DNA of 36,755 nucleotides, taken from contig JAAYAJ010000048.1 of the NCBI GenBank assembly GCA_012719455.1, positions 1 through 36,755 on the forward strand. Direction: 5' to 3'. Every line of letters begins with the position of its first letter. Within the stretch, counting starts at the first letter, position 1. Source of the stretch: Acidobacteriota bacterium. Lineage in GTDB: Bacteria; Acidobacteriota; UBA6911. A program made the translations under genes and the position numbers. The notes beneath the pieces were generated by a model that did no database searches, had not been told where the DNA came from, and saw only the letters and a program-made list of their open reading frames with translations. Shown in pieces: positions 3 to 28,020 of this stretch.

Positions 3-2924
3 CTCGCCTTCATCGCCGTGCTACAATCCAGTCCTCGCAAAGGGCTGAAATGCCTGGACCGGGCAGTCGAGGCATGTCCGGAAGAAAACGCCACCACCCT
101 GAGGGGGCGAATTCAGAATTTGTACGCATGGTTATATAGAGTTGCGGGCGATTTTCGGAATGCAATTAAGGCGGGAAGGACAGCTGTGAACATTCTCAGC
201 CAGTCGGAAGGGTCACACCTTGCATGCTCGGCTTATTCCACACTTGGGTTTATTCAAATGGGCTTAGGGAGACTTCCGCTTTCGCTTGAAAACCATGTTC
301 AGGCAGTTTCATGGGCTGAGAAGAGTCGGTCCGTGGATCTCAGAGCACAGGCTCTCGCAAACCTGACGGAGTGTCTTTGTCGAATGGGAAGAATTAAAGA
401 TTCGCTCAAAGAATCCTTGCTGGCTTCGGACCTGATTGAATATTCTAAGATTCCCACTATCAAAAATCCTTTCAATGCCATTCTAGCCGAGCTTTATTTC
501 GTTTCAGGACACTATCGCGAGGCTGGTGATTTGGTTTTGAATATCTGTGGGGAAGGGAGGGATAATGCTTCCAGCTTTACAATTGGACATGTGTACTACG
601 TCGCAGCGGAACTGAACTGTTATCTGGGCCGGTTGCCGGAAGCCTTGCGACATATCGAAGAACTGTCCAGATACGGCACCGCCGAGGCTCCTCTCTATGA
701 GCATGAACTGGCGGAGGCGCTCCGGGCGCGCATCATGGCCGAGCAGGGGCTGGGGGAGGAAGCGCTACGGAAGCTGGCGGCGCTCGATCGCGCGGTGACC
801 CGGAAACACTGGCCCTACCAGATGTGCATCGTCCGGCTGCATATTGGCGAGGTCCTGCTTCAGCAGGGGAGGGCGGGGGAGGCTGAAAAATATGGCAGAA
901 ACGCCCTCCGGCTGGCCCGGGGCATGGGTGCCGAGCCGCTGAAGCAGCGGGCTCACCTCCTTCTTGGTACAATCTATTCCCCCTGCCGCGGCCGGTCGGG
1001 GGAAACGGTCAAGGATAGGGCGAAGGCGGTCGAGCAGCTTGACCGTTGCCTTTGCAACGACCAGCAATTTGTACACCAGGAATCCCTTTGGCGTGCCCAT
1101 GCGGAACTGAGCTTACTGTATGGTGAAGAGGGGGACTTGAGGCGAAGTTTCGAGTCCGCCGAAAAAGCCTACGCCCATCTCTGCAGGATGGAACGCCAGC
1201 TTCCGCCGGAGGCGCTGGTCTCCTTCTACTCAGTCTTTGACCGGAGCCGGTTGAAGCTGGAACTCCTCGGCGCCATTGAAAAGGGTCGGGTGCAGCGGCT
1301 CATTCCGGCGGAAGTTGAGGGGCCGCTCGACGACCGGAATGCCCGTACTCTGCAGCGCCTGAGCGCCGCAATCACGTCCGCAGAGGACCTGGACGATCTG
1401 CTGGAAGCGCTCCTGGATCAACTGTTGCCAGTGCTTGGGATGACCCGTGCTTTCGTTTATCTATGTGAAGAACCAGGTGGGAAGTTGCGGCCTGTCAAAT
1501 CGAGGGGGCTGGGCGGGGTCAATCTGGAGGAGCGCGGTTCGGTCTATCGGGAAGTTGTAGAGAAGGTTTTCCGCGAGGAGACCCCGCTCATTAGCGCCGA
1601 TTGCCGCCGGGACCCCCGGATCGTGAACTCCCTCACTCGCAGCGGAGGGAGGGGGAGCCTGATGTGTGCTCCCCTGAAGGCTCCCGGCAGGGTGATCGGG
1701 GTCCTGTGTGCCGAGCATGGCACCCCTGTAGACAGTATCGCCGAGCCGGTGATCGGTCTGTTTGCCACCGCCTGTTCCCTGGCAGCCCTGGGGATCGCCC
1801 ACATGCTCGTACGGCCGCATCCGCCCGCAATTCATTTTGCTGCCGCCGGTGCGCGGTTTGACGACAACGATCCTTATCCGGAGATTGTGGGGGAAAGCCC
1901 TGCTATCCGGGCGTTGAAAGAGCGGATCGAGCTGGTTGCGAACTCGGGTCAGGATGTATTGATTACCGGAGAGAGCGGAACGGGAAAAGAGCTGGTGGCA
2001 CGCGCCATCCATCGATCAAGTCCGGGAAAGAAGGGGCCGCTGATATCGGTGGACTGCGGCGCTCTGTCAGAATCACTGGTGGAATCGGAATTGTTCGGCT
2101 ACCGTCGGGGAGCCTTCACGGGGGCATTGGAGGACAGGCCCGGGTGTTTTGAAGCCGCTGACGGGGGAGTTCTTTTTCTTGATGAAGTCGGCAATCTGCC
2201 TCTAACGGTGCAGGTAAAATTACTTCGGGTGACGCAGGAACGGGAGGTGCGCCGGATCGGGGAAATGCACACCCGCAAATTCAAAATCCGGATCATTACC
2301 GCTGCCAACCGCAATCTCCTGGATGAGGTGCGCGCGGGCCGCTTTCGCGAGGACCTTTACTACCGGATCAGAATCCTGGAAATCCATCTTCCTCCTTTGC
2401 GCGAGCGCAGGGAGGACATCCCGTTGCTCATCGACTGGTTTCTCAAATCGTGCGCCAGGGAAAAGGGGTTTTACAAGCAGGTGCGCCCCAAAGCCATGGA
2501 TCTGCTCCTGCGCTATTCCTATCCGGGGAACGTACGCGAGTTGGGGAGCATGATTCGGGGGATCTATTACAACGTAAAAGGCACTAGTATCGACGTTGGG
2601 GACCTGCCCCCGGAGGTTTGCTGCGGGCGGTTTTCCGGACTCCTGGTCGACCAGGATCCAGCCGAAAGGATCTATCACGCCATTGTCGAGGGACAGGGTG
2701 ATTTCGATGAAATGGTCAAAATCCCCTTTCTCGATCACCAGATCAATGTCGAGATCGTGCGCGGGGTTATTGTGAAAGCGCTGCGGGAAACGTTCGGCAA
2801 CTATACCCGGGCGTTTGGCATCCTCCGGGTACCCGAGCGGCGTTACTCTTCCACACTTCAGTTTTTGAAGCGGCACAGGTGTTACGTGGACTATCGTTCT
2901 TTCAGGCGTCGTGGGGGAGGGTGA
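3..2924 (+). CDS. Sigma-54-dependent transcriptional activator with TPR and GAF domains (5' partial)
   Basis: The protein is an enhancer-binding activator that would use ATP hydrolysis to open sigma-54 promoters. The frame is open to the left edge, and the first possible start in the window is a GTG at 18, so the N-terminus probably lies outside. Counting from that GTG, residues 1-400 are helical TPR-like repeats. About 437-600 form a GAF-type sensor domain. The AAA+ domain runs from about 625 to 865, with Walker A GESGTGKE (about 651), the sigma-54 contact motif GAFTGA (about 698), Walker B LFLDE (about 720) and an arginine-rich REDLYYR segment. The C-terminal 60 residues hold a Fis-like helix-turn-helix (GNYTRAFGILRV) that diverges from the usual form and is followed by a basic tail. 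TPR-GAF-AAA+ proteins in this lineage may also carry an N-terminal Ser/Thr kinase, but none can be seen here. Its target genes are unknown. It is convergent with the HD-GYP gene, 31 bp away. Confidence 0.93.
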   Translation, partial: LAFIAVLQSSPRKGLKCLDRAVEACPEENATTLRGRIQNLYAWLYRVAGDFRNAIKAGRTAVNILSQSEGSHLACSAYSTLGFIQMGLGRLPLSLENHVQAVSWAEKSRSVDLRAQALANLTECLCRMGRIKDSLKESLLASDLIEYSKIPTIKNPFNAILAELYFVSGHYREAGDLVLNICGEGRDNASSFTIGHVYYVAAELNCYLGRLPEALRHIEELSRYGTAEAPLYEHELAEALRARIMAEQGLGEEALRKLAALDRAVTRKHWPYQMCIVRLHIGEVLLQQGRAGEAEKYGRNALRLARGMGAEPLKQRAHLLLGTIYSPCRGRSGETVKDRAKAVEQLDRCLCNDQQFVHQESLWRAHAELSLLYGEEGDLRRSFESAEKAYAHLCRMERQLPPEALVSFYSVFDRSRLKLELLGAIEKGRVQRLIPAEVEGPLDDRNARTLQRLSAAITSAEDLDDLLEALLDQLLPVLGMTRAFVYLCEEPGGKLRPVKSRGLGGVNLEERGSVYREVVEKVFREETPLISADCRRDPRIVNSLTRSGGRGSLMCAPLKAPGRVIGVLCAEHGTPVDSIAEPVIGLFATACSLAALGIAHMLVRPHPPAIHFAAAGARFDDNDPYPEIVGESPAIRALKERIELVANSGQDVLITGESGTGKELVARAIHRSSPGKKGPLISVDCGALSESLVESELFGYRRGAFTGALEDRPGCFEAADGGVLFLDEVGNLPLTVQVKLLRVTQEREVRRIGEMHTRKFKIRIITAANRNLLDEVRAGRFREDLYYRIRILEIHLPPLRERREDIPLLIDWFLKSCAREKGFYKQVRPKAMDLLLRYSYPGNVRELGSMIRGIYYNVKGTSIDVGDLPPEVCCGRFSGLLVDQDPAERIYHAIVEGQGDFDEMVKIPFLDHQINVEIVRGVIVKALRETFGNYTRAFGILRVPERRYSSTLQFLKRHRCYVDYRSFRRRGGG

Positions 2925-2955
2925 GGCGAGGCTTGACACGCATCCGGGAGAGGGG

Positions 2956-5358
2956 TTAGTGGCGGAAATCGATGATGTTATCTCCCTGGGGTATTTCTAC
3001 AGACGCCGATTTGATCGATTCCAGGGCGGCCTGAAGAAGGGCCGTGACAGTGGCGCCGTCCTTAGGATGAACGGCGATGCCGGCCTTGAAATCGACGGTA
3101 ATCCCCTGGACCGCGTTGGTGACTTCCCGTCTGATCTGCTGCCTCAACCGGTCGGCGCAGTGGATCGCCTGCTGTTCCCTCATCCCGGGGAGGAGTGCCA
3201 CGAACCCCTGGTTCCCGTAACGCACCAGGGTATCGGTGCCCCGGAGTTCAGGCTTGATGCAATTGGCGATTCTGCGGAGCAGGGAGTTCCCCTGGTGGCC
3301 TCCGTAGAGGCGGGTGATCTGGCTCAGATTCTTGATTTCCAGGTAGATAAGGGCCAGTGGAGCCTTGCTGGCGGCTGCCGTGGCAAGGAGGCGGGGGGCA
3401 ATGGCTGCAAGGTAGGAGATCCGGTGGATCTGGGTGGCGGGATCAAGCAGGTCCTGGTCTTCCGAGCCCTTGCGCTTTTTGGCGTCGACAAGCAGGGGGG
3501 CGATAAGGTCGGCCAACATCTGCAGGTGGTCCTGGTGCTCCTGGGTATAGAAGCCCTTTTCCTGCGCATAGAGGGAGAGGGCGCCGAGGGGCTCGCCCTC
3601 GTAGACTACGGGGACGGAGAGCGCATCGGTGAGGGAGCTGAAATCGCCTGCCAGACCGATGAAGTCGAGTTCGGGACCCGTGTTGCGTATGGGGCGGTTG
3701 TAGGCGGCCACCCAGCCGCTGATTCCCTGCCCCTTGTTCATTCCGTGCCCCCGGAGAAGCGGGGCATGGCGGCCGGACACGGAGACGGCCTCGAGGCGGC
3801 CTTGTTCGTTGACGAGATAAAGTACGCAGGTGCTGTAGGGTAGAAAGGGCTCCAGCTGGTTGAGTACCACCGGGAAAACGTCCTTGAGCTCGAAGTAGCC
3901 GGACATGGTATTGCAGAACTCGGCGACGCGGACGAATTCCGTCGGTAGGTCGGTTGCCGGGACCGCAAGCATCGGGGCAACGCCTCCCGGGTGGTCGGGC
4001 TGGAAATACTTGCGGAAGGAGAGTTCCGGGGCGTTTTCCGATTCCCGGACGGCCTGCTCCTCCAATTCGTGGATGTGCTCCACCAGCAACTCCACCAGTT
4101 TGGGATCGAAGTAGCTCCCCGATTCGGAGCGCAGCACCTCGAGGGCTTCCTCGGTCGTCATGGCGAGTTTATACGGCCTGGAGAAGCGGATGGCGTCGAA
4201 GGCATCGACGACCGAGAGAATCCGGCCTCCCAAGGGGATCTCTTCTCCCTTCAGCCCGTCCGGATAGCCGTTCCCGTCCCAGCGCTCGTGATGGCAGCGC
4301 ACGTACTTGGCCACGGGGAAAGGGAACCGGACCTGCTGCAGGATTTCGTCCCCGGCGGGCGCGTGTAATTTGATCTTTTCGAATTCCTCGCTGGTGAGTT
4401 TCCCGGGCTTGTTCAGGATGAAGTCGTCCACGGCCAGCTTGCCGATGTCGTGCAGGAGCGCGCCTGTTTCAATCGCCTTTAATTCATCGGGATCCTGGAT
4501 GCCGCAGAGCCGGGCCAGCCCCATCGCGTAGACCCGGACCCTGCGAATATGGCCGTAGGTGGTCTGATCCTTTGCGTCCACCGCCAGGGCGAGCGATTCC
4601 ACCGTCCTTAAATATAAATCCTCTTGTTCTTTAAGGTGCTTCTCCGCTTCCATGATGCGGGCGTTGTTGGCGATGATGCGGGACCGGTTCTGCTGGTGGT
4701 ATCCCCAGACGAGGCCCAGGAGCGGAGCCAGGACAATGGGCAGGAACTCCTGCCATCGGTGCAGGATCACGAAGGTAGTGGCGATCCCCGCCGATGCGGA
4801 AAATTCAATGACCAGCGGCATCATGGTTTTGGCCCAAATCTTCGTAGCACTTTCGTTTATCGACCAGGATATGGCAATCGCCACCAGGCTGGAATTGGCT
4901 GCGAAGTAGGTAATGGTCAATATGGCGGAGCCCACGACAAGATCAAGGATCTGGTCGTGGCCCCCAACCATCTTGTGATAGACGAAGCTGTAGAGCCAGG
5001 CCACGCAGACGGTGCTGGAAACATTGAATACGATTTGATGGGTCGGAATTTTAGGGCGTTTGGCGAAAACCGAGATCAGAAAGGTGTGGCAGAAGGTGGC
5101 GACCACGCAGGGTGCTATGCCGTATATCATCCCGATGGCCATGACAAATGCATCGCCAATGGTAATTGTTGTTTTTTCTGAGTCGATGGAGACTTTGAGT
5201 GAAACGGAGATGATGACTAAGACGAGAAATAGGAGCCAGCCCGGGCTATATGAGTCAGTGAGGATCTTTTTAGAAGTCCAGACAACTATAGGTATAGCTA
5301 TGATGGACAGGAGTATTATATATGCTTGTAGCTTTCGTGGAAGACTATTCCATTTCAT
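2956..5358 (-). CDS. Membrane HD-GYP phosphodiesterase with GAF and degenerate GGDEF domains
   Basis: This is a predicted inner-membrane c-di-GMP signalling protein of 800 residues. The first 220 residues hold six to seven hydrophobic segments (a membrane sensor region), then a short coiled coil. The HD-GYP domain follows at about 250-440, with the metal-binding HD in HDIGKL (about 303) and the HHE...GYP signature (about 356-366) intact, so phosphodiesterase activity is plausible. A GAF domain lies at about 465-625. The C-terminal GGDEF-like domain (about 635-790) has RYGNQGF where active cyclases have RYGGDEF, so it is probably catalytically dead and regulatory. I chose the ATG at 5358 because AGGA precedes it and because upstream in-frame codons run back into a terminator and probable promoter. 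Starts at 5388 or 5439 would add 10 or 27 residues. Confidence 0.92.
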   Translation of the reverse strand: MKWNSLPRKLQAYIILLSIIAIPIVVWTSKKILTDSYSPGWLLFLVLVIISVSLKVSIDSEKTTITIGDAFVMAIGMIYGIAPCVVATFCHTFLISVFAKRPKIPTHQIVFNVSSTVCVAWLYSFVYHKMVGGHDQILDLVVGSAILTITYFAANSSLVAIAISWSINESATKIWAKTMMPLVIEFSASAGIATTFVILHRWQEFLPIVLAPLLGLVWGYHQQNRSRIIANNARIMEAEKHLKEQEDLYLRTVESLALAVDAKDQTTYGHIRRVRVYAMGLARLCGIQDPDELKAIETGALLHDIGKLAVDDFILNKPGKLTSEEFEKIKLHAPAGDEILQQVRFPFPVAKYVRCHHERWDGNGYPDGLKGEEIPLGGRILSVVDAFDAIRFSRPYKLAMTTEEALEVLRSESGSYFDPKLVELLVEHIHELEEQAVRESENAPELSFRKYFQPDHPGGVAPMLAVPATDLPTEFVRVAEFCNTMSGYFELKDVFPVVLNQLEPFLPYSTCVLYLVNEQGRLEAVSVSGRHAPLLRGHGMNKGQGISGWVAAYNRPIRNTGPELDFIGLAGDFSSLTDALSVPVVYEGEPLGALSLYAQEKGFYTQEHQDHLQMLADLIAPLLVDAKKRKGSEDQDLLDPATQIHRISYLAAIAPRLLATAAASKAPLALIYLEIKNLSQITRLYGGHQGNSLLRRIANCIKPELRGTDTLVRYGNQGFVALLPGMREQQAIHCADRLRQQIRREVTNAVQGITVDFKAGIAVHPKDGATVTALLQAALESIKSASVEIPQGDNIIDFRH

Positions 5359-5410: not shown

Positions 5411-5439
5411 GTTATAAAATCCTCTTGGATGGGAGCCAA
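5411..5439 (-). promoter_or_regulatory. Possible sigma-70 promoter for the HD-GYP gene
   Basis: Read on the minus strand, TTGGCT (5439-5434) and TATAAC (5416-5411) are separated by exactly 17 nt. This lies between the upstream terminator (5444-5475) and the chosen start at 5358, so an independent promoter is expected here. The match is by eye only; the -35 has four of six consensus bases. Confidence 0.4.
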
Positions 5440-5475
5440 AAAAGAAGGCAGGCCGAGGTCACTCGGCCTGCCTTC
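5438..5475 (-). terminator. Rho-independent terminator (orphan)
   Basis: A perfect 14-bp inverted repeat (5444-5457 and 5462-5475) with a 4-nt loop is followed on the minus strand by a run of six T within 5443-5438. It ends a transcript coming from the right, where the only large gene on this strand is the PqqD-M50-HlyD gene 745 bp upstream. This implies that either that gene has a long 3' region or something small is transcribed in between. Confidence 0.85.
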
Positions 5476-5491
5476 CGTTCATCCAACGCCC

Positions 5492-5563
5492 CTAGGGCTG
5501 ACCAATTGTCCAAAGCACTCCAGGCGTTTCACGGCTTTCGAGAATTTCAATTTCAGTCTGCAT
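5492..5563 (-). CDS. Candidate 23-residue peptide, unassigned
   Basis: A short ATG frame encodes a 23-residue peptide beginning MQTEIEILESRE and ending in GQP. GGAG sits seven bases before the ATG, and the frame stops just before the orphan terminator. The start codon directly follows the TAA of the longer small frame upstream (TAAATG), an arrangement compatible with translational coupling. It resembles no family I can name. A chance frame of this size is common, so the case rests on the ribosome site, the junction and the terminator. If real, its position downstream of a PqqD-M50-HlyD gene would suggest a substrate peptide. Confidence 0.22.
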   Translation of the reverse strand: MQTEIEILESRETPGVLWTIGQP

Positions 5564-5785
5564 TTAGAGTCTCCACTTGGTTTTGGGTGAGCCTAATGAT
5601 CCTTGTTGACCACCGGCTACAGCCAAAGAATCGCACTTGCCATAGCTACCCTCCTTTTCAAGCGTGGGAGTGGCAATTGACAATCCCTGATTAAAAGCAC
5701 AAACACACCCTCCCCGGCCCTTTGGGGCCAAAGGGTTTGCATTTGCAACACTATGAGGTTGACCACAGGATGGTTCAGCGCCCAT
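5564..5785 (-). CDS. Candidate 73-residue small protein, unassigned
   Basis: This minus-strand frame runs from an ATG at 5785 to a TAA at 5566-5564. It could extend further upstream with a TTG start at 5872. The product is rich in Gly, Ala, Ser and Pro and has four cysteines, including a GGCVCA segment, but shows no motif I recognise. No good ribosome site precedes the ATG; a TAGGAG lies about 18 nt before it. An AAAGGAGG inside the frame (5658-5648 region) precedes an out-of-frame ATG that encodes only eight residues. Coding status is therefore doubtful, and the DNA could instead specify a structured RNA. Confidence 0.18.
   Translation of the reverse strand: MGAEPSCGQPHSVANANPLAPKGRGGCVCAFNQGLSIATPTLEKEGSYGKCDSLAVAGGQQGSLGSPKTKWRL
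5718..5735. repeat. Short hairpin CCCTTTGG/CCAAAGGG
   Basis: An 8-bp perfect inverted repeat separated by two bases. It lies inside the candidate 73-residue frame. It is not followed by a T-run on either strand, so it is not an ordinary terminator. Confidence 0.6.
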
Positions 5786-5823
5786 GCCGCCGACCGGAAA
5801 AACTCCTAATGGATCCGTCCGCC

Positions 5824-5856
5824 TTGCCGATAAATGCGAACAGGATTTATCGGCAA
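5824..5856. repeat. 12-bp perfect inverted repeat
   Basis: TTGCCGATAAAT (5824-5835) and its exact reverse complement (5845-5856) flank a 9-nt loop. A-rich sequence follows on the plus strand, with no downstream T-run on either strand, so it is not a standard terminator. It could be an RNA stem, a protein-binding palindrome or the end of a decayed element. Confidence 0.75.
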
Positions 5857-6220
5857 AAACCACAACCTGCAAGGCAGAGCCTTTATCAACCCCAGGTTAG
5901 CGCTCTTACTCAGATTGGTAGTAGCACTTGGTTCCGCTTGAGCTTTCGCCAAATGACCCAAGCACTCTTCAAGATGAGAGAGCTATTCGAGAAACCTACT
6001 GTTGCCCTCGGATCCGCAAAACCGGAAACCATTTGCGTTCGTGCCATAACTTCCGGCAGCGTCTCCGCTTGCGACAAATCTACTAACTGTGACAATTTAG
6101 CAGCAGGTTTACAGGTCTGTCAACCATATTCAATACTGTAGCGTTAGTATTACGTTGAGGGCTGCCGACCGGAAATTTTTGTTGTCAAAGGCTTTTCAGG
6201 ATTTTCCTGTGCGTGCGCGG

Positions 6221-8596
6221 TCAGGGGAGATATTCCCAGAATTCGGTTCGAATCCACCGTACAGCCCGGCGGAAGGCGATGGCGAAGACGGTGCGCTTGC
6301 CGCAAAGGATCTTCCCGACCCCCGTCATTCCCGATTTCAGGCTGCCGTCCTGGTTGGTCAGCTCTCCGTGGACGAGGACGGTGCGATCCGTACCGGTGGC
6401 GGCGGCGACCGGCGCAATGCTTTTGACGTGGGCCTCGTACCATCGGTTGGGATATCCCCGCACCTTGAGGCTGATCGGCATCCCCACGCTCACTTCGCCG
6501 ATCTCTTTTTCGGGGACCGGCATCTCGATCAGCATGGTCCCTTCGCTGACGATGTCGCAGAGGGGATTCCCCATGTCCAGGTACTCCCCAATTCGGTTTT
6601 TGAGGTGCGCCGTGGCCACGATCCCCGCTATGGGGCTGCGGATCTTCAGCTGTTCCTTCTGCTTTTCGAGAATGTTGAGCTTTTCCTCCAGTTTCGATAC
6701 CTGGGAGGCGCTGGCGCGCAGCGATTCCTTGCGCGCTCCCGCCAGCAGGATGTTCAGTTGGCTTTCCGCTTGGGCGAGCTCCTTACGCTTGATGTCCCGG
6801 TTCCGGTCGGTCTGCTCTTCCAGGATGCTCAGCTGCCCCTTGGCTTCGGCCAGTTCCTTCTGGTGAACCTCGAAGGCGGTCCGGTCACGGTCGGCCTCGA
6901 TCCGGGCGATCAAGCCCGAATTGAGAAGGCTCAAGGTCCTTTCGTAATTCAGCTGCGCGTTTTTCAGCTCCGACTCCCGCTTGGAGATGGTTTCCCGCAG
7001 CAGGGCCCGTTCCTGCTCGACCCGGGTGGCGTTATACAGCTCGGCCCGTTTGGTTTCCACCTGCCGGCGCGCGGTTTCGATTTCCTCCGGGCGGCTCCCT
7101 GCCTTGAGCAGATCCAGGGATGCCTGCTGCGACGCCAGTTCCCCCCGGGTTTCCTCGTAACTGTTGGACAGTTCCAGGTTTTCGATTTCCGCCAGCAGTT
7201 GCCCCACCTGCACGCGGTCCCCCTGGTCCACGTGGATGCGCTTCAGGTTTCCGACGACCTGGGGGGTCACCGAAACCTTCTGAGCCGCCGTGATGACGAA
7301 TTCGCCCGAAATCTTAAGCTGCCAGGGGAGAAAGCCCACCAGGAGCGCAAGGAGGAGCAAACCCATGTAAATCAGTGGTTTTTTCCGGATTCGGATGATC
7401 ATGCCCGATAACAGCCGACGCGAGGTCTCGACGTTTTCTTTGCGGGTGATCGGGACGGCGGCCAAAAAGAGGGCCGAGGTGGCCAGAATGCCCCAGAACC
7501 GGTACTCCCGGATGATCCACCCCCCGATACGGTGCAGCATGACGGCGACGAGGGCCACGGTGAACAGGGAGGAGGCCAGGCCGTACCAGGCCAGGATCCG
7601 CCGTTCGCGCCGGTTCACCTCTCCTTCCGGCGCGGGCGTTCCGGTGATGAATCCCACCACCCGGTCTTTGAGGTAGGCGAGCGCCTTTGGTCTCAGGTTG
7701 GGGATCTGGACGTAGTCGCTCAGCATGTAGTAACCGTCCAGCTTGATCAGCGGGTTGAAGTTGAAAAGGGTCTGAATCCCCGAAAAGGCGATGACGATGA
7801 GGCATACCTGGCTGGCCAGGGTCTCGGGCGCCAGGATCCTCCAGGCGATGGTGGCCAAGGCCCACAGGAAGATTTGGATGTAGCCTCCGGCTACCGAGAC
7901 CAGCAGCCGCTGGCGCCTTCCCATCATCCAGGCGTCGCTGACGTTGCAGTAGAACGCCGGGATGAAGTACAGGAGCATCACGCCCATCTCCTCAACCCGG
8001 CCCCCGTAATGCTTGAGCGTGAGTCCGTGCGCGAATTCGTGCACGGTGACAACGGCAAAGATCACCAGGAGGATCAGGGGTATGGAGTAGAGTGAAAAGA
8101 GCGCGCCCATGGAGAAGAAAAGCGACCGGGCGTGCACGACGGAGATGATCCCGGCGATGATGACGGCGGCCCAGAAGAGGGGCGCAAAGGCAGGGCTGAA
8201 GAAGAAACGGAGCCTTTTTTCCAGCAGGGTCAGCGTCCGGTCCGGGTTGAAGGCGTGGATCCTGATCGAGAGCAGGTTTTTAAAGCTTCTCTTCGAGCCC
8301 CGGGCCGCGGATTCGAGCCGCATCCAGCAGTAGGGGTGGTCCAGCAGCAGCAGTTGGCGCAATTTCCCGACGAAGTCCTCCAGTTGGTGCTCCAGGACCT
8401 CGGTCCGGTGTTTCGCGGAGGCGATGGCGGCGATGGCGGCCAAGTCACGGCTGCCGTCCAGAAGCTCGAGCACGGATGCCTGTACCGGAGTGAAGCGGTA
8501 GAAGCGGCGGGTGACGGGGTCTTTGACGATGATGCCGGAAGTACCCTCGGAGGAGATCTCGAGATCCCTTCGCAATTTCTCCGGCGCTGGTGTCAT
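6221..8596 (-). CDS. PqqD-like / M50 metalloprotease / HlyD fusion (peptide processing and export)
   Basis: This 791-residue protein joins three modules. Residues about 10-85 match the PqqD-like winged helix used as a peptide-recognition element in RiPP systems (DPVTRRFYRFTP followed by LELLDGSRDL). Residues about 140-420 form a polytopic membrane M50 (site-2-like) protease with HEFAHG (about 186) and the second zinc motif NPLIKLDGYY (about 281-290). After further transmembrane segments, about 430-791 form an HlyD-type adaptor with a long coiled-coil hairpin between two lipoyl-like halves. Proteins of this kind are annotated as putative peptide zinc metalloproteases and sit beside exported peptides or bacteriocins. 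No ABC transporter, radical-SAM enzyme or precursor is obvious nearby. I chose the ATG at 8596 (GAGG six bases before it); an ATG at 8623 adds nine residues but lacks a ribosome site. The substrate is unknown. Confidence 0.88.
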   Translation of the reverse strand: MTPAPEKLRRDLEISSEGTSGIIVKDPVTRRFYRFTPVQASVLELLDGSRDLAAIAAIASAKHRTEVLEHQLEDFVGKLRQLLLLDHPYCWMRLESAARGSKRSFKNLLSIRIHAFNPDRTLTLLEKRLRFFFSPAFAPLFWAAVIIAGIISVVHARSLFFSMGALFSLYSIPLILLVIFAVVTVHEFAHGLTLKHYGGRVEEMGVMLLYFIPAFYCNVSDAWMMGRRQRLLVSVAGGYIQIFLWALATIAWRILAPETLASQVCLIVIAFSGIQTLFNFNPLIKLDGYYMLSDYVQIPNLRPKALAYLKDRVVGFITGTPAPEGEVNRRERRILAWYGLASSLFTVALVAVMLHRIGGWIIREYRFWGILATSALFLAAVPITRKENVETSRRLLSGMIIRIRKKPLIYMGLLLLALLVGFLPWQLKISGEFVITAAQKVSVTPQVVGNLKRIHVDQGDRVQVGQLLAEIENLELSNSYEETRGELASQQASLDLLKAGSRPEEIETARRQVETKRAELYNATRVEQERALLRETISKRESELKNAQLNYERTLSLLNSGLIARIEADRDRTAFEVHQKELAEAKGQLSILEEQTDRNRDIKRKELAQAESQLNILLAGARKESLRASASQVSKLEEKLNILEKQKEQLKIRSPIAGIVATAHLKNRIGEYLDMGNPLCDIVSEGTMLIEMPVPEKEIGEVSVGMPISLKVRGYPNRWYEAHVKSIAPVAAATGTDRTVLVHGELTNQDGSLKSGMTGVGKILCGKRTVFAIAFRRAVRWIRTEFWEYLP

Positions 8597-8676
8597 CTTG
8601 GGCCTCGGCGAGCGGTTGGACATCGCGGTGACATTGCCCCGCCTGGCTGCGAATCTTAGTCAATAGGCTGCTGCCA

Positions 8677-8707
8677 TTGCAATAGTTATGTAACCTTTTA
8701 GTATAAT
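8677..8707 (+). promoter_or_regulatory. Probable promoter of the SUMF1-type lipoprotein gene
   Basis: A consensus TATAAT (8702-8707) is preceded by TTGCAA (8677-8682) with a 19-nt spacer, about 70 bp before the lipoprotein start. A TATACT on the opposite strand (8705-8700) overlaps it and could serve the divergent PqqD-M50-HlyD gene, so the two transcripts may compete for this site. Confidence 0.5.
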
Positions 8708-8775
8708 TGACTGGCGAATGGAGGTATTGTATAAATCGCGGATCACTTGGTAACAGCGTAATCATGGAGGAATGG

Positions 8776-9609
8776 ATGATGGGGAAGAAAGTTCTGATGG
8801 TTCTTGCCGCACTGATTCTGATGTATGGCCTGATCGCCTGCGGGAAAAAGGAGGCGGAGCCGCAGGAAGAGGCGGTCGCGGAGCAGGAGGCGCCTGCAAT
8901 CGTGCCTGGCGAGATGGTGCTCATCCCGGAAGGAGAGTTCATCCTGGGGACGAACGACAAGGAATCGAACGCGTATCCCGAGCAGAAGATCAAGCTGCCC
9001 GCGTACTGGATCGACAAATACGAGGTCACCAACACGGAGTTCCTGGAGTTCTCGATCAAGAACAGCTATGCGGGGGAGGGGGCCAAGGAGGGGCACGACT
9101 GGAGGCTCTTCTTCACATCCGAAAAAGGGATGTTCCCGGTGGTTTATATCACTTGGAACGACGCGGACGCCTATTGCAAGGCCCAGGGAAAGCGGCTGCC
9201 AACCGAGGAAGAGTGGGAAAAGGCCGCCCGGGGCACGGAGGGGTTCATCTACCCCTGGGGGAACGAGTGGCAGGACGGCATGAGCAACACGTATGAGTCT
9301 GGGCCGGGCAAAGCGGTGGCCATAGGGGAATTCAACGATGTCAGCCCCTTCGGCGTGCACGACATGCTGGGTAACGTGCAGGAATGGACCGCCTCGTGGT
9401 ATTCCTCCTACAAGGGGAACCCGAAGCGGGATCCGAAGTCGGGCCAGACCCTGCGCGTGGTCCGCGGGCTCGCGTCCCGCTACCGCGGGAAGATGGGGCA
9501 TCTTTACGATCGTTCGGCGCAGCAGCCGAACGCGCTGTACGATTTCGGTTGCCGGTGTGCCAAGGACGCCACTCCCGAAGATGTCGCCCAGGCCGCCCAG
9601 GCCAGGTAG
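8776..9609 (+). CDS. SUMF1/FGE-fold lipoprotein
   Basis: A 277-residue exported lipoprotein. Its N-terminus is a short signal peptide ending in the lipobox LIAC (Cys about 22), followed by a charged linker. Residues from about 50 to the end have the formylglycine-generating-enzyme fold: GEMVLIPEGEF, EVTNTEFLEF, WNDADAYC, RLPTEEEWEKAARG, YPWGNEW, FGVHDMLGNVQEWT and a final FGCRCA. True FGE enzymes use a copper-binding cysteine pair in the segment between VRGL and the C-terminus. Only the terminal CRC cysteines are visible here, so a binding or structural role is likelier than sulfatase activation. I chose the ATG at 8776 because GGAGG lies five bases before it; an immediately adjacent ATG at 8779 is equally usable. 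It is transcribed divergently from the M50 gene. Confidence 0.88.
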   Translation: MMGKKVLMVLAALILMYGLIACGKKEAEPQEEAVAEQEAPAIVPGEMVLIPEGEFILGTNDKESNAYPEQKIKLPAYWIDKYEVTNTEFLEFSIKNSYAGEGAKEGHDWRLFFTSEKGMFPVVYITWNDADAYCKAQGKRLPTEEEWEKAARGTEGFIYPWGNEWQDGMSNTYESGPGKAVAIGEFNDVSPFGVHDMLGNVQEWTASWYSSYKGNPKRDPKSGQTLRVVRGLASRYRGKMGHLYDRSAQQPNALYDFGCRCAKDATPEDVAQAAQAR

Positions 9610-26422: not shown

Positions 26423-28020
26423 TCCAGCCCCGTCATGCGGCTGAACCCAAGCGAGTCGGACAGCCGTTCGAACGCCTCCCCCAGGGCCGAGCGCTTGAGA
26501 CTCTGGACGATGGCCCACAATCCCATGTACAGGTAGCCGAACTGGAAGAGGAAGAGGAATGGGATGACGGCGTAGATGCCGGCGTTCCAGGCGTAGACGA
26601 CCACGAAGGTGAAATAGGCGCCGAAGAGGATCTCCACCAGGTTCAGCAGCCCGATGTCGCAGCGGTACTTCTTGCTCATCCACTCGCCCCCCCGGGCGTC
26701 CACGGAAAACTTGGGGGTGCGCACGAAGGGGGACTGGATTCCGAGCGCTCCCTCGAGCACCGCCTTCGTCCCCGGGATGGTCATGCCGATCCCCACCGCC
26801 ATCAGCCCGGGAAGGTAGAGGATGCGCTTCAACCAGTCCTTGTGCAGCGCCCGCTGCGAAACTATGTAGAAGGTGGTGACGCTGCTGAAGGCGAGAATGA
26901 AGAGGGGGAGGTCGATGATGAGCAGCTCGAACCACCCTTGGTTGTAGCGGATGATCATGGCGGGACAGAGCAGCAGCGCCAGGACCACCATCAGCGGGCA
27001 GGTGATGTTTCCGGTCAGGTGGTACCAGGCCTCCATCTTTTGCCCCCGCGAAAAATTCCCCAGCAGGACATGCGGGAGCACCTTCTTCCCGGTCTGCATG
27101 GCTCCCTTGGCCCAGCGGCACTGCTGGGTTATGAAGGAGTTGATCTCCACCGGCAGTTCGGCCGGGACCGTCAGGTCGGGGAGGAAAACGAAGCGCCACC
27201 CCTTCATCTGGGCGCGGTAGCTCAAATCGAGGTCTTCGGTCAGGGTGTCGTGCTCCCATCCCCCGGCGTCCTCGATCGTCTTGCGGCGCAGGATGCCGGC
27301 CGTGCCGTTGAAGTTGAAAAAGTGCCCGCTCAGGGAGCGCGTATTGCTTTCGAGCATGAAATGGGCGTCGAGAAGGATCGCCTGGACCCGGGTCAGGAAC
27401 GAGTGGTCTCGATTCAGGTGCTCCCAGCGTCCCTGCACCATCCCTACCTTGGGATCGGTGAAGTGGTGGATCGATTTCCGGAGGAAGTCGGGGTTGGGGA
27501 CGAAATCGGCGTCGAACACGGCCACGAATTCGCCCTTGGCCGTGCGGAGGCCGTTTTCGAGCGCCCCCGCCTTGAAGCCGGTTCGGTCGATCCTATGGAT
27601 GTAGTCGATGTCCAAGCCGCGCTCGCGCCAGCGCGCGACGGCGTCGCGGGCGATCTTCTGCGTCTCGTCGGTGGAATCGTCCAGCACCTGGATGTCCAGC
27701 TTTTCCCGGGGGTAGTCCAGGGCGCAGACCGCGTCGATGACCCGTTCAATGACGTACATTTCGTTGTAGGAGGGGATCTGCACGGTGACCCGGGGAAGTT
27801 CGGCGAACCGGGCGAGCGGTGCGGTGACTTTTTTGCGATGCTTGCGGTACTGGAACACCATCTTGTAGCGGTGCAGGCCGTAGAAGCTCAGGATCGCCAG
27901 GATGGTGAAGTAGGCGATGACGATGGTCAGGTCGAAGCTGTTCATTTCGTACAGATAGGAGATGTTTCCGGTCTGGACGAATTTTTCGTAATCGGTCAGT
28001 TGCGGGCCGAACAGGTTCAT
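26419..28020 (-). CDS. Membrane family 2 glycosyltransferase (cellulose-synthase-like)
   Basis: A processive-type GT2 enzyme of 533 residues in the cytoplasmic membrane. One N-terminal helix (about 28-50) leads to the catalytic domain with QIPSYNE, DDSTDET, DADF and TEDLD, and a QQCRW motif that marks processive synthases, all in the proper order. Several transmembrane helices follow (about 330-420 and 455-515). The acceptor and sugar are not predictable; family members make cellulose, hyaluronan-like or mannan chains. No partner subunit is nearby. The ATG at 28020 has GGAGAG six bases upstream; a longer start 19 codons earlier is unlikely. It is transcribed divergently from xseA. Confidence 0.9.
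   Translation of the reverse strand: MNLFGPQLTDYEKFVQTGNISYLYEMNSFDLTIVIAYFTILAILSFYGLHRYKMVFQYRKHRKKVTAPLARFAELPRVTVQIPSYNEMYVIERVIDAVCALDYPREKLDIQVLDDSTDETQKIARDAVARWRERGLDIDYIHRIDRTGFKAGALENGLRTAKGEFVAVFDADFVPNPDFLRKSIHHFTDPKVGMVQGRWEHLNRDHSFLTRVQAILLDAHFMLESNTRSLSGHFFNFNGTAGILRRKTIEDAGGWEHDTLTEDLDLSYRAQMKGWRFVFLPDLTVPAELPVEINSFITQQCRWAKGAMQTGKKVLPHVLLGNFSRGQKMEAWYHLTGNITCPLMVVLALLLCPAMIIRYNQGWFELLIIDLPLFILAFSSVTTFYIVSQRALHKDWLKRILYLPGLMAVGIGMTIPGTKAVLEGALGIQSPFVRTPKFSVDARGGEWMSKKYRCDIGLLNLVEILFGAYFTFVVVYAWNAGIYAVIPFLFLFQFGYLYMGLWAIVQSLKRSALGEAFERLSDSLGFSRMTGLD

Follow-up and report, generated by a model that had tools for sequence, protein, structure and literature searches.

Daptides provide the closest described system for the locus studied here. 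In daptide maturation, a site-2 protease fused to a RiPP recognition element (RRE; RiPP, ribosomally synthesised and post-translationally modified peptide) removes a leader with the motif ELExMEAP and the product begins after the Pro residue (PMC10036551). We analysed a 36,755-nucleotide stretch of DNA, called here the window, from an Acidobacteriota bacterium (GTDB lineage UBA6911; assembly GCA_012719455.1, contig JAAYAJ010000048.1). Its reverse strand carries, at positions 6221-8623, a gene coding for an RRE, an M50 site-2 protease and an HlyD adaptor in a single chain. The tail behind this gene contains two micro-open reading frames (micro-ORFs) that are conserved in related genomes. The data indicate that this is probably a small RiPP-like peptide-export locus.

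The original prediction had described a PqqD-like domain, an M50 protease and an HlyD adaptor in one chain. All three are indeed found in the 800-residue product (791 residues from an alternative ATG at 8596), on the basis of Pfam searches, invariant motifs and the RRE fold. The N-terminal domain (residues 14-112; 8288-8584) was modelled with AF2 at a pLDDT of 93.5. The model is a winged helix with three strands and three helices, like solved RREs. Its best PDB matches with Foldseek were PqqD (5sxy) and TbiB1/TfuB1 with leader peptides, followed by SkfB, SuiB and TruD. The E-values (0.006-0.05) are modest because the domain is small. An independent PDB profile search gave TbiB1 at E=2.8e-4, with PqqD lower. 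The protease part carries the HExxH and distal LDG motifs of M50 site-2 proteases, though with a Pfam score under the cut-off. The H, E and H residues of HEFAH (residues 195-199; 8027-8041), as well as DGYY in LDGYY (residues 295-299; 7727-7741), are invariant in 63 relatives. Finally, the C-terminal part (about residues 434-778; 6290-7324) has the barrel-sandwich hybrid and coiled-coil hairpin of HlyD/RND membrane-fusion adaptors. It matched Pfam HlyD_D23 above the cut-off (E=4e-22) and EmrA (4tko, E=1e-30) in the PDB profile search, while Foldseek returned EmrA/MacA. The best curated family for the whole protein was the daptide RRE-metalloprotease NF041824 (E=1.9e-66, 224.7 bits for a cut-off of 300). 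Judged from its sequence, the fusion protein is a genuine RRE of the PqqD/lasso-B1 fold joined to an intact M50 site-2 protease and an HlyD adaptor.

A gene-poor tail with a strong terminator had also been predicted, together with two small frames joined by TAAATG with a ribosome site, and a precursor peptide and/or a regulatory RNA was expected close by. We translated the conserved islands of the tail across orthologous loci and obtained two families of micro-ORFs. Type A is represented in the window by MQTEIEILESRETPGVLWTIGQP (23 residues; 5492-5563, reverse strand), preceded by a GGAG ribosome site. Type B, which the original prediction had missed, is represented by MASAILWL (8 residues; 5617-5643, reverse strand), preceded by AAGGAGGG. 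GGAG-type sites stand ahead of both types in most copies. Members of the type A family begin with MQT[ED]IE[IV]LE[STPN]R[ED][TNA]P and continue for 5-9 residues that show a Phi-Phi-W pattern. Peptides of type B are 8-10 residues long and end in [AG]ILWL, with AILWL or GILWL kept. Differences between genomes at the three codon positions were 69/73/470 for the type A leader (14 full-leader copies) and 35/20/122 for the type B core (12 copies from 10 genomes). Since third-position differences dominate, both types look translated and constrained. Type A is the downstream of the two frames predicted at the TAAATG junction. The junction and its GGAG are thus real and the downstream frame is coding, but the upstream 102-residue frame (5564-5872) was rejected as a precursor or gene: its codon-position differences are 11/15/7 and 12/14/7 as compared to relatives, and indels are present.

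Both types recur in the genus and in the family, with up to four copies of type A and two of type B. One genome, G008, has the order B-A-A-A-B-A; G012 has one type B and three type A, G011 two type B, and G003 two type A across a contig break. Micro-ORF copy number therefore varies as in precursor arrays. A DNA pattern for the type A leader gave 15 matches in 100 genomes, all at this locus, and its reversed control gave none. Without the MQT start, the pattern gave no added site elsewhere in the 15 genomes searched. Overall, codon statistics and conservation show that the micro-peptide genes are real, translated and tied to the fusion gene. The absence of any conserved small frame or hairpin beside orthologues had been named as the result that would contradict the prediction; in related genomes the opposite was found.

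Within type A, a putative leader, MQTEIEILESRETP (5522-5563), can be delimited, with a cut predicted after Pro. It belongs to the same motif class as ELExMEAP of daptides and [VIL]ExLExRIAP of more distant relatives. The remaining putative core, GVLWTIGQP (5495-5521), has an xPhiPhiW pattern that is kept among copies. Corresponding cores in relatives include SVLWI and VIVWT. The Trp residue is present in all complete cores, which end in various residues. Type B is in effect a core lacking a leader.

LESREAP (from genome G013) and LESRETP (from the window) align with the daptide motif LExMEAP. The locus further resembles daptide systems (MpaP/DapP, MpaA; PMC10036551; NF041824) in its RRE fused to an intramembrane site-2 protease, its multi-copy short precursors with an LExRExP/LExREAP leader, and its core rich in branched aliphatic residues. 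In contrast to daptides, the window protein bears an HlyD adaptor and scores under the NF041824 cut-off, the core is only 5-9 residues long, a C-terminal Thr is not kept, and the phyla lie outside Actinomycetota and Bacillota. A scan of window proteins, in which small ORFs were not all included, showed no oxidative decarboxylase, aminotransferase, methyltransferase or RRE-DUF gene. Because this C-terminal machinery was not seen and there is no constant Thr, daptide membership was rejected. The same scan returned no radical SAM, YcaO, LanB/M, immunity or ABC gene, in agreement with the earlier statement that radical-SAM, lanthipeptide and ABC genes were not visible.

Other described systems share parts of this architecture. 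PqqA/PqqD of pyrroloquinoline quinone (PQQ) biosynthesis and the lasso-peptide B1 proteins have the RRE fold and precursors of 20-odd residues, but the window has no visible radical SAM, cyclase or PqqB-F gene and its RRE is fused to a protease and an adaptor; identity with either system was rejected. The epipeptide YydF/LiaK system also uses an M50-type maturation protease. Its model NF058609 matched the fusion protein at E=4e-13, far below the cut-off, and membership was rejected as no radical SAM epimerase gene was seen among the window proteins scanned. Type I secretion systems and tripartite pumps (HlyD, EmrA, MacA) have an HlyD-type adaptor, and TolC genes neighbour relatives of the fusion gene; here, however, the adaptor is fused to an RRE-protease and no ABC or MFS partner gene was seen. 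Lastly, the LEPR-XLL proteins (NF012209, LEPR-8K) carry an N-terminal ExLExR-type motif on a gene beside an RRE-M50-HlyD relative. They are thousands of residues long as compared to 23 here, and their motif continues with LLSAD/FDAA rather than ExP or IAP. Type A did not match NF012209 and was not assigned to this family.

The tail also carries RNA-level signals absent from the original prediction. A promoter, TTGACA-N18-TAAATT with a TG ahead of the -10 box (6094-6123, reverse strand), precedes the micro-ORFs; in most family loci, TTGACA and a TGnTA-like -10 are retained close behind the fusion gene. About 100 nucleotides beyond the promoter lies a structured 5′ leader RNA (5890-6002, reverse strand). 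It comprises an invariant joining strand, UCUCGAAUA, a stem P2 formed by GCUCUCUCA and UGAGUAAGAGC, and a covarying inner stem. The UCUCGAAUAGCUC strand is invariant in the eight aligned sequences. The inner stem varies in sequence between genomes with its pairing retained. Its duplex energy was -13.2 kcal/mol with own strands versus -8.8 kcal/mol with permuted partners; 5 of 20,000 permutations did as well as the own strands. Support for the closing stem P1 was modest (740 of 20,000). RNAalifold on the raw alignment gave no pairs, probably through misalignment of the variable stem; the structure is supported by single-sequence folds and by the permutation test. A covariance model, R1, found the RNA once per genome in 10 family genomes and only at this locus; two of the ten, G003 and G012, were absent from the model and both score weakly. 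A general riboswitch was rejected, as R1 gives a single convincing copy per genome, here only, and its weak matches (in G035, and at 27547 of the window) look like chance. Rfam gave no match for the tail at gathering score, the weak hits being terminator or chance. The transcript would close at a rho-independent terminator-like hairpin (5443-5476, reverse strand) of 15 pairs, with a 14-bp perfect inverted repeat, a 4-nucleotide loop and a T-run. The strong terminator and the lack of a large gene are therefore borne out, but the tail is not empty, and the expected precursor and regulatory RNA have their counterparts in the two micro-ORFs and the RNA element, all of which are conserved at the same place in orthologous loci.

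Orthologues of the fusion gene were found by genome search in 9 of 10 genus members, counting the window's own genome, and in 4 of 5 other family genomes (54-89% identity); the named ones within the family are metagenome-assembled Acidobacteria genomes. Relatives elsewhere in the phylum have 33-39% identity. Gene order is largely kept in orthologous loci: pcnB, rlmI, a divergent gene for a lipoprotein resembling FGE-sulfatase, the fusion gene, the tail, an HD-GYP/GGDEF gene and a convergent sigma-54 activator gene. The tail measures about 0.75-0.85 kb up to the next same-strand gene, without any large gene. Its identity is 81-83% over the alignable length in the two nearest genomes, and only short islands remain in more distant ones. 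The tail was rejected as an element repeated in the genome.

Species genomes scanned with an alignment of 19 sequences yielded 80 relative loci, in records named Rokubacteria, Acidobacteria, Verrucomicrobia, Planctomycetes, Gemmatimonadetes, Zixibacteria, Nitrospirae and others. Most of them adjoin one to five small ORFs with the N-terminus [VIL]ExLExRIAP and Gly/Ser/Asn/Pro-rich tails, usually 200-1500 bp upstream of the fusion gene. For the strict motif [VILM]Ex[LIVM]ExRxxP, 78 matches lay no more than 2 kb from the gene; the flanks at 2-8 kb, about 600 kb in total, had none, and shuffles gave 0.05. With a slightly wider motif, 52 of the 80 loci had a match. Searching 100 relatives with an LExRIAP DNA pattern gave 22 matches, 17 of them within 2 kb of a fusion gene by coordinate comparison. 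TolC-type OEP genes adjoin six of the 80 loci. The window's own genome contains no LExRIAP-type match and no other match of the tighter leader pattern; it encodes several OEP (TolC-type) channel proteins elsewhere. From their sequences, a few bridging peptides appear to connect type A with the LExRIAP kind: MEENLVLEVEELEEKIAPNVIWVS (L089), where leader MEENLVLEVEELEEKIAP is joined to NVIWVS; a peptide with an IEELENKVAP leader and an SVIWI end (L106); and the type-B-like MNETYGVIWV (L100). Recurrence of the leader motif beside relatives in several phyla, a sequence-level result, points to an undescribed leader-guided peptide or protein export system and supports the undescribed peptide system that had been suggested as a possibility.

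Further features were observed at these loci. Both kinds of locus occur in genome G011, one of the AILWL type and another of the RIAP type (contigs C5 and C12), each with its own fusion gene. In 18 of the 80 loci (L070, at 2525-3508, L072, L073, L076, L086, L119, L134 and 11 more), the gene immediately after the fusion gene encodes a member of a family of about 330 residues; the single member tested had no Pfam match. In five Planctomycete loci (L114, L115, L125, L128, L131), a family of 142-207 residues (...ETFWYL...FDVDxAxxLVxDGREPVEL) stands just upstream of the fusion gene, in the place held by LExRIAP ORFs in other loci. One member was tested and had no Pfam match.

Proteobacterial relatives of the fusion protein (25-29% identity) are located on plasmids, where the operon also holds a single giant gene, additional HlyD adaptors and, in most cases, TolC. 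The N-termini of six giants were read (VEPIEPRILLSAD, MEALEPRFLLSAD, LDPMEPRVLLSAD, FDTLEPRVLLNAD, LALEPRVVYDAS, LALEPRMMFDAA) and carry the LEPR motif. The longest gene has 38.8 kb, or about 12,900 residues. Four giants were scanned against NCBIfam; two scored above the LEPR-XLL cut-off and two matched below it. A seventh locus, from Magnetospirillum, has an ELWxxDGT-repeat gene without the LEPR motif, and no giant gene was present in the stretch read at the Rhizobium and Indioceanicola loci. At six loci (L218, L219, L221, L226, L227, L228), giant LEPR-XLL/DUF4347/LamG genes stand by the RRE-M50-HlyD relative, and DUF3467, further HlyD adaptors and TolC are often present too.

Three neighbours of the locus were also considered. 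The gene at 2956-5358 (reverse strand, start placed by homology) encodes a MASE9-like/HD-GYP/GAF/GGDEF cyclic-di-GMP protein. Family members retain it in this position behind the peptides, and such a gene also lies near two Terriglobia loci. The FGE-like lipoprotein gene (8707-9609, forward strand), divergent to the fusion gene, is adjacent to it in this clade only and was not found beside relatives outside, which fits plain synteny; an action on an exported product is also conceivable. The TPR-GAF-sigma54 activator gene (3-2924, forward strand), convergent with the cyclic-di-GMP gene, is kept in several relatives; a TPR regulator of this kind could conceivably act as receptor for the peptide.

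The alignment of LESREAP and LESRETP with LExMEAP, together with daptide cleavage after Pro, leads us to the following proposal. The promoter would drive a transcript with the conserved structured leader RNA, from which type A and type B micro-peptides are made. The RRE of the fusion protein would bind the type A leader, and its intramembrane M50 protease would, by analogy, cut type A after the conserved Pro. The short PhiPhiW core would then leave the cell by way of the HlyD part and a TolC-type channel whose gene lies elsewhere in the genome. As a tentative first guess, with the odds somewhat against it, the product may be a secreted signal, because the peptides are tiny, hydrophobic and multi-copy, no modifying or immunity gene was seen nearby, and a conserved cyclic-di-GMP sensor gene is adjacent. 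A sensor role for that gene would suit its kept position, which is a matter of neighbourhood only.

Several observations weigh against peptide export or its details. In Pfam, the M50 (E=0.0012) and PqqD (E=0.003) matches of the fusion protein are both below the cut-offs. Type B carries no leader. No energising transporter (ABC/MFS/RND) was seen adjoining the adaptor. At 28 of the 80 relative loci, the motif was missing even in its wider form, in some cases because of contig ends. As for the signal role, it is drawn from size, composition and neighbours only.

Other explanations were weighed against peptide export. The one we would take most seriously, while still doubting it, is a modified natural product, either an antimicrobial or a Trp-derived cofactor, whose modifying enzymes are encoded elsewhere in the genome. 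In its favour are an RRE with a precursor-like leader, the Trp conserved in all complete cores, PqqD, the RRE of PQQ biosynthesis, as the best Foldseek match and the divergent FGE-like lipoprotein kept in the clade. However, neither modifying enzymes (radical SAM, YcaO, LanB/M, daptide enzymes) nor an immunity candidate were seen among the scanned window proteins, and the FGE-like gene behaves as plain synteny predicts. We consider it very improbable that the region is plain intergenic DNA with a terminator and small frames that arose by chance. The non-coding 102-residue frame would fit this reading, and the terminator scan and short repeats taken alone are little above shuffles, but the reading is already contradicted by conserved micro-ORFs with synonymous change, covarying RNA and locus-restricted pattern matches.

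Known arrest peptides can be as short as type B. The micro-ORFs could thus be regulatory leader peptides, with ribosome stalling on AILWL-stop or VLW controlling a downstream mRNA and no export involved; their very short size, hydrophobic C-termini and conserved structured RNA upstream agree with this. We nevertheless regard it as unlikely, since the transcript appears to stop at the strong terminator after type A, ahead of the next gene, since the B-A-A-A-B-A order of G008 leaves the ORFs only each other to regulate, and since the leader motif of type A, shared across phyla, also heads longer small ORFs at other loci. Equally improbable in our view is that the fusion protein exports large LEPR-headed surface proteins in general, with the micro-peptides as its reduced leftovers or regulators rather than cargo. 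The giant LEPR proteins beside Proteobacterial relatives favour such an exporter, but the window's genome lacks other matches of the leader patterns, and the micro-ORFs are constrained and, in several genomes, present in multiple copies. Peptide export remains the preferred reading.

The fusion-protein architecture is already annotated in databases. In the literature covered (main texts, few subscription papers), we found no account of its cargo, the LExRIAP leaders, the micro-ORFs, the RNA or the gene combination. Genes of 8 and 23 residues are shorter than gene finders usually accept, so annotation can easily overlook the system.

Overall, the locus relates to RRE-guided site-2 protease peptide maturation, and there is a reasonable chance that it belongs to a broader, categorically new secretion system. 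In that system, for which we see about even chances, RRE-M50-HlyD(-TolC) would be one leader-guided secretion machinery in many phyla. The N-terminal ExLExR motif (LEPR-XLL, LExRIAP, LExRExP) would be an export tag read by the RRE and removed by the fused site-2 protease, and its cargo would be as small as 5-residue peptides and as large as proteins with about 13,000 residues. If so, the LEPR-XLL signature would be explained, with RiPP-type recognition serving bulk protein secretion and RiPP leader recognition tied to Gram-negative secretion of giant proteins. If peptide export is correct, a job would be given to a widespread fusion protein labelled 'PqqD family peptide modification chaperone' or 'HlyD adaptor' in databases, a testable motif would be available for precursor finding, and a large family of unannotated micro-peptides would be exposed in mostly uncultured bacteria.

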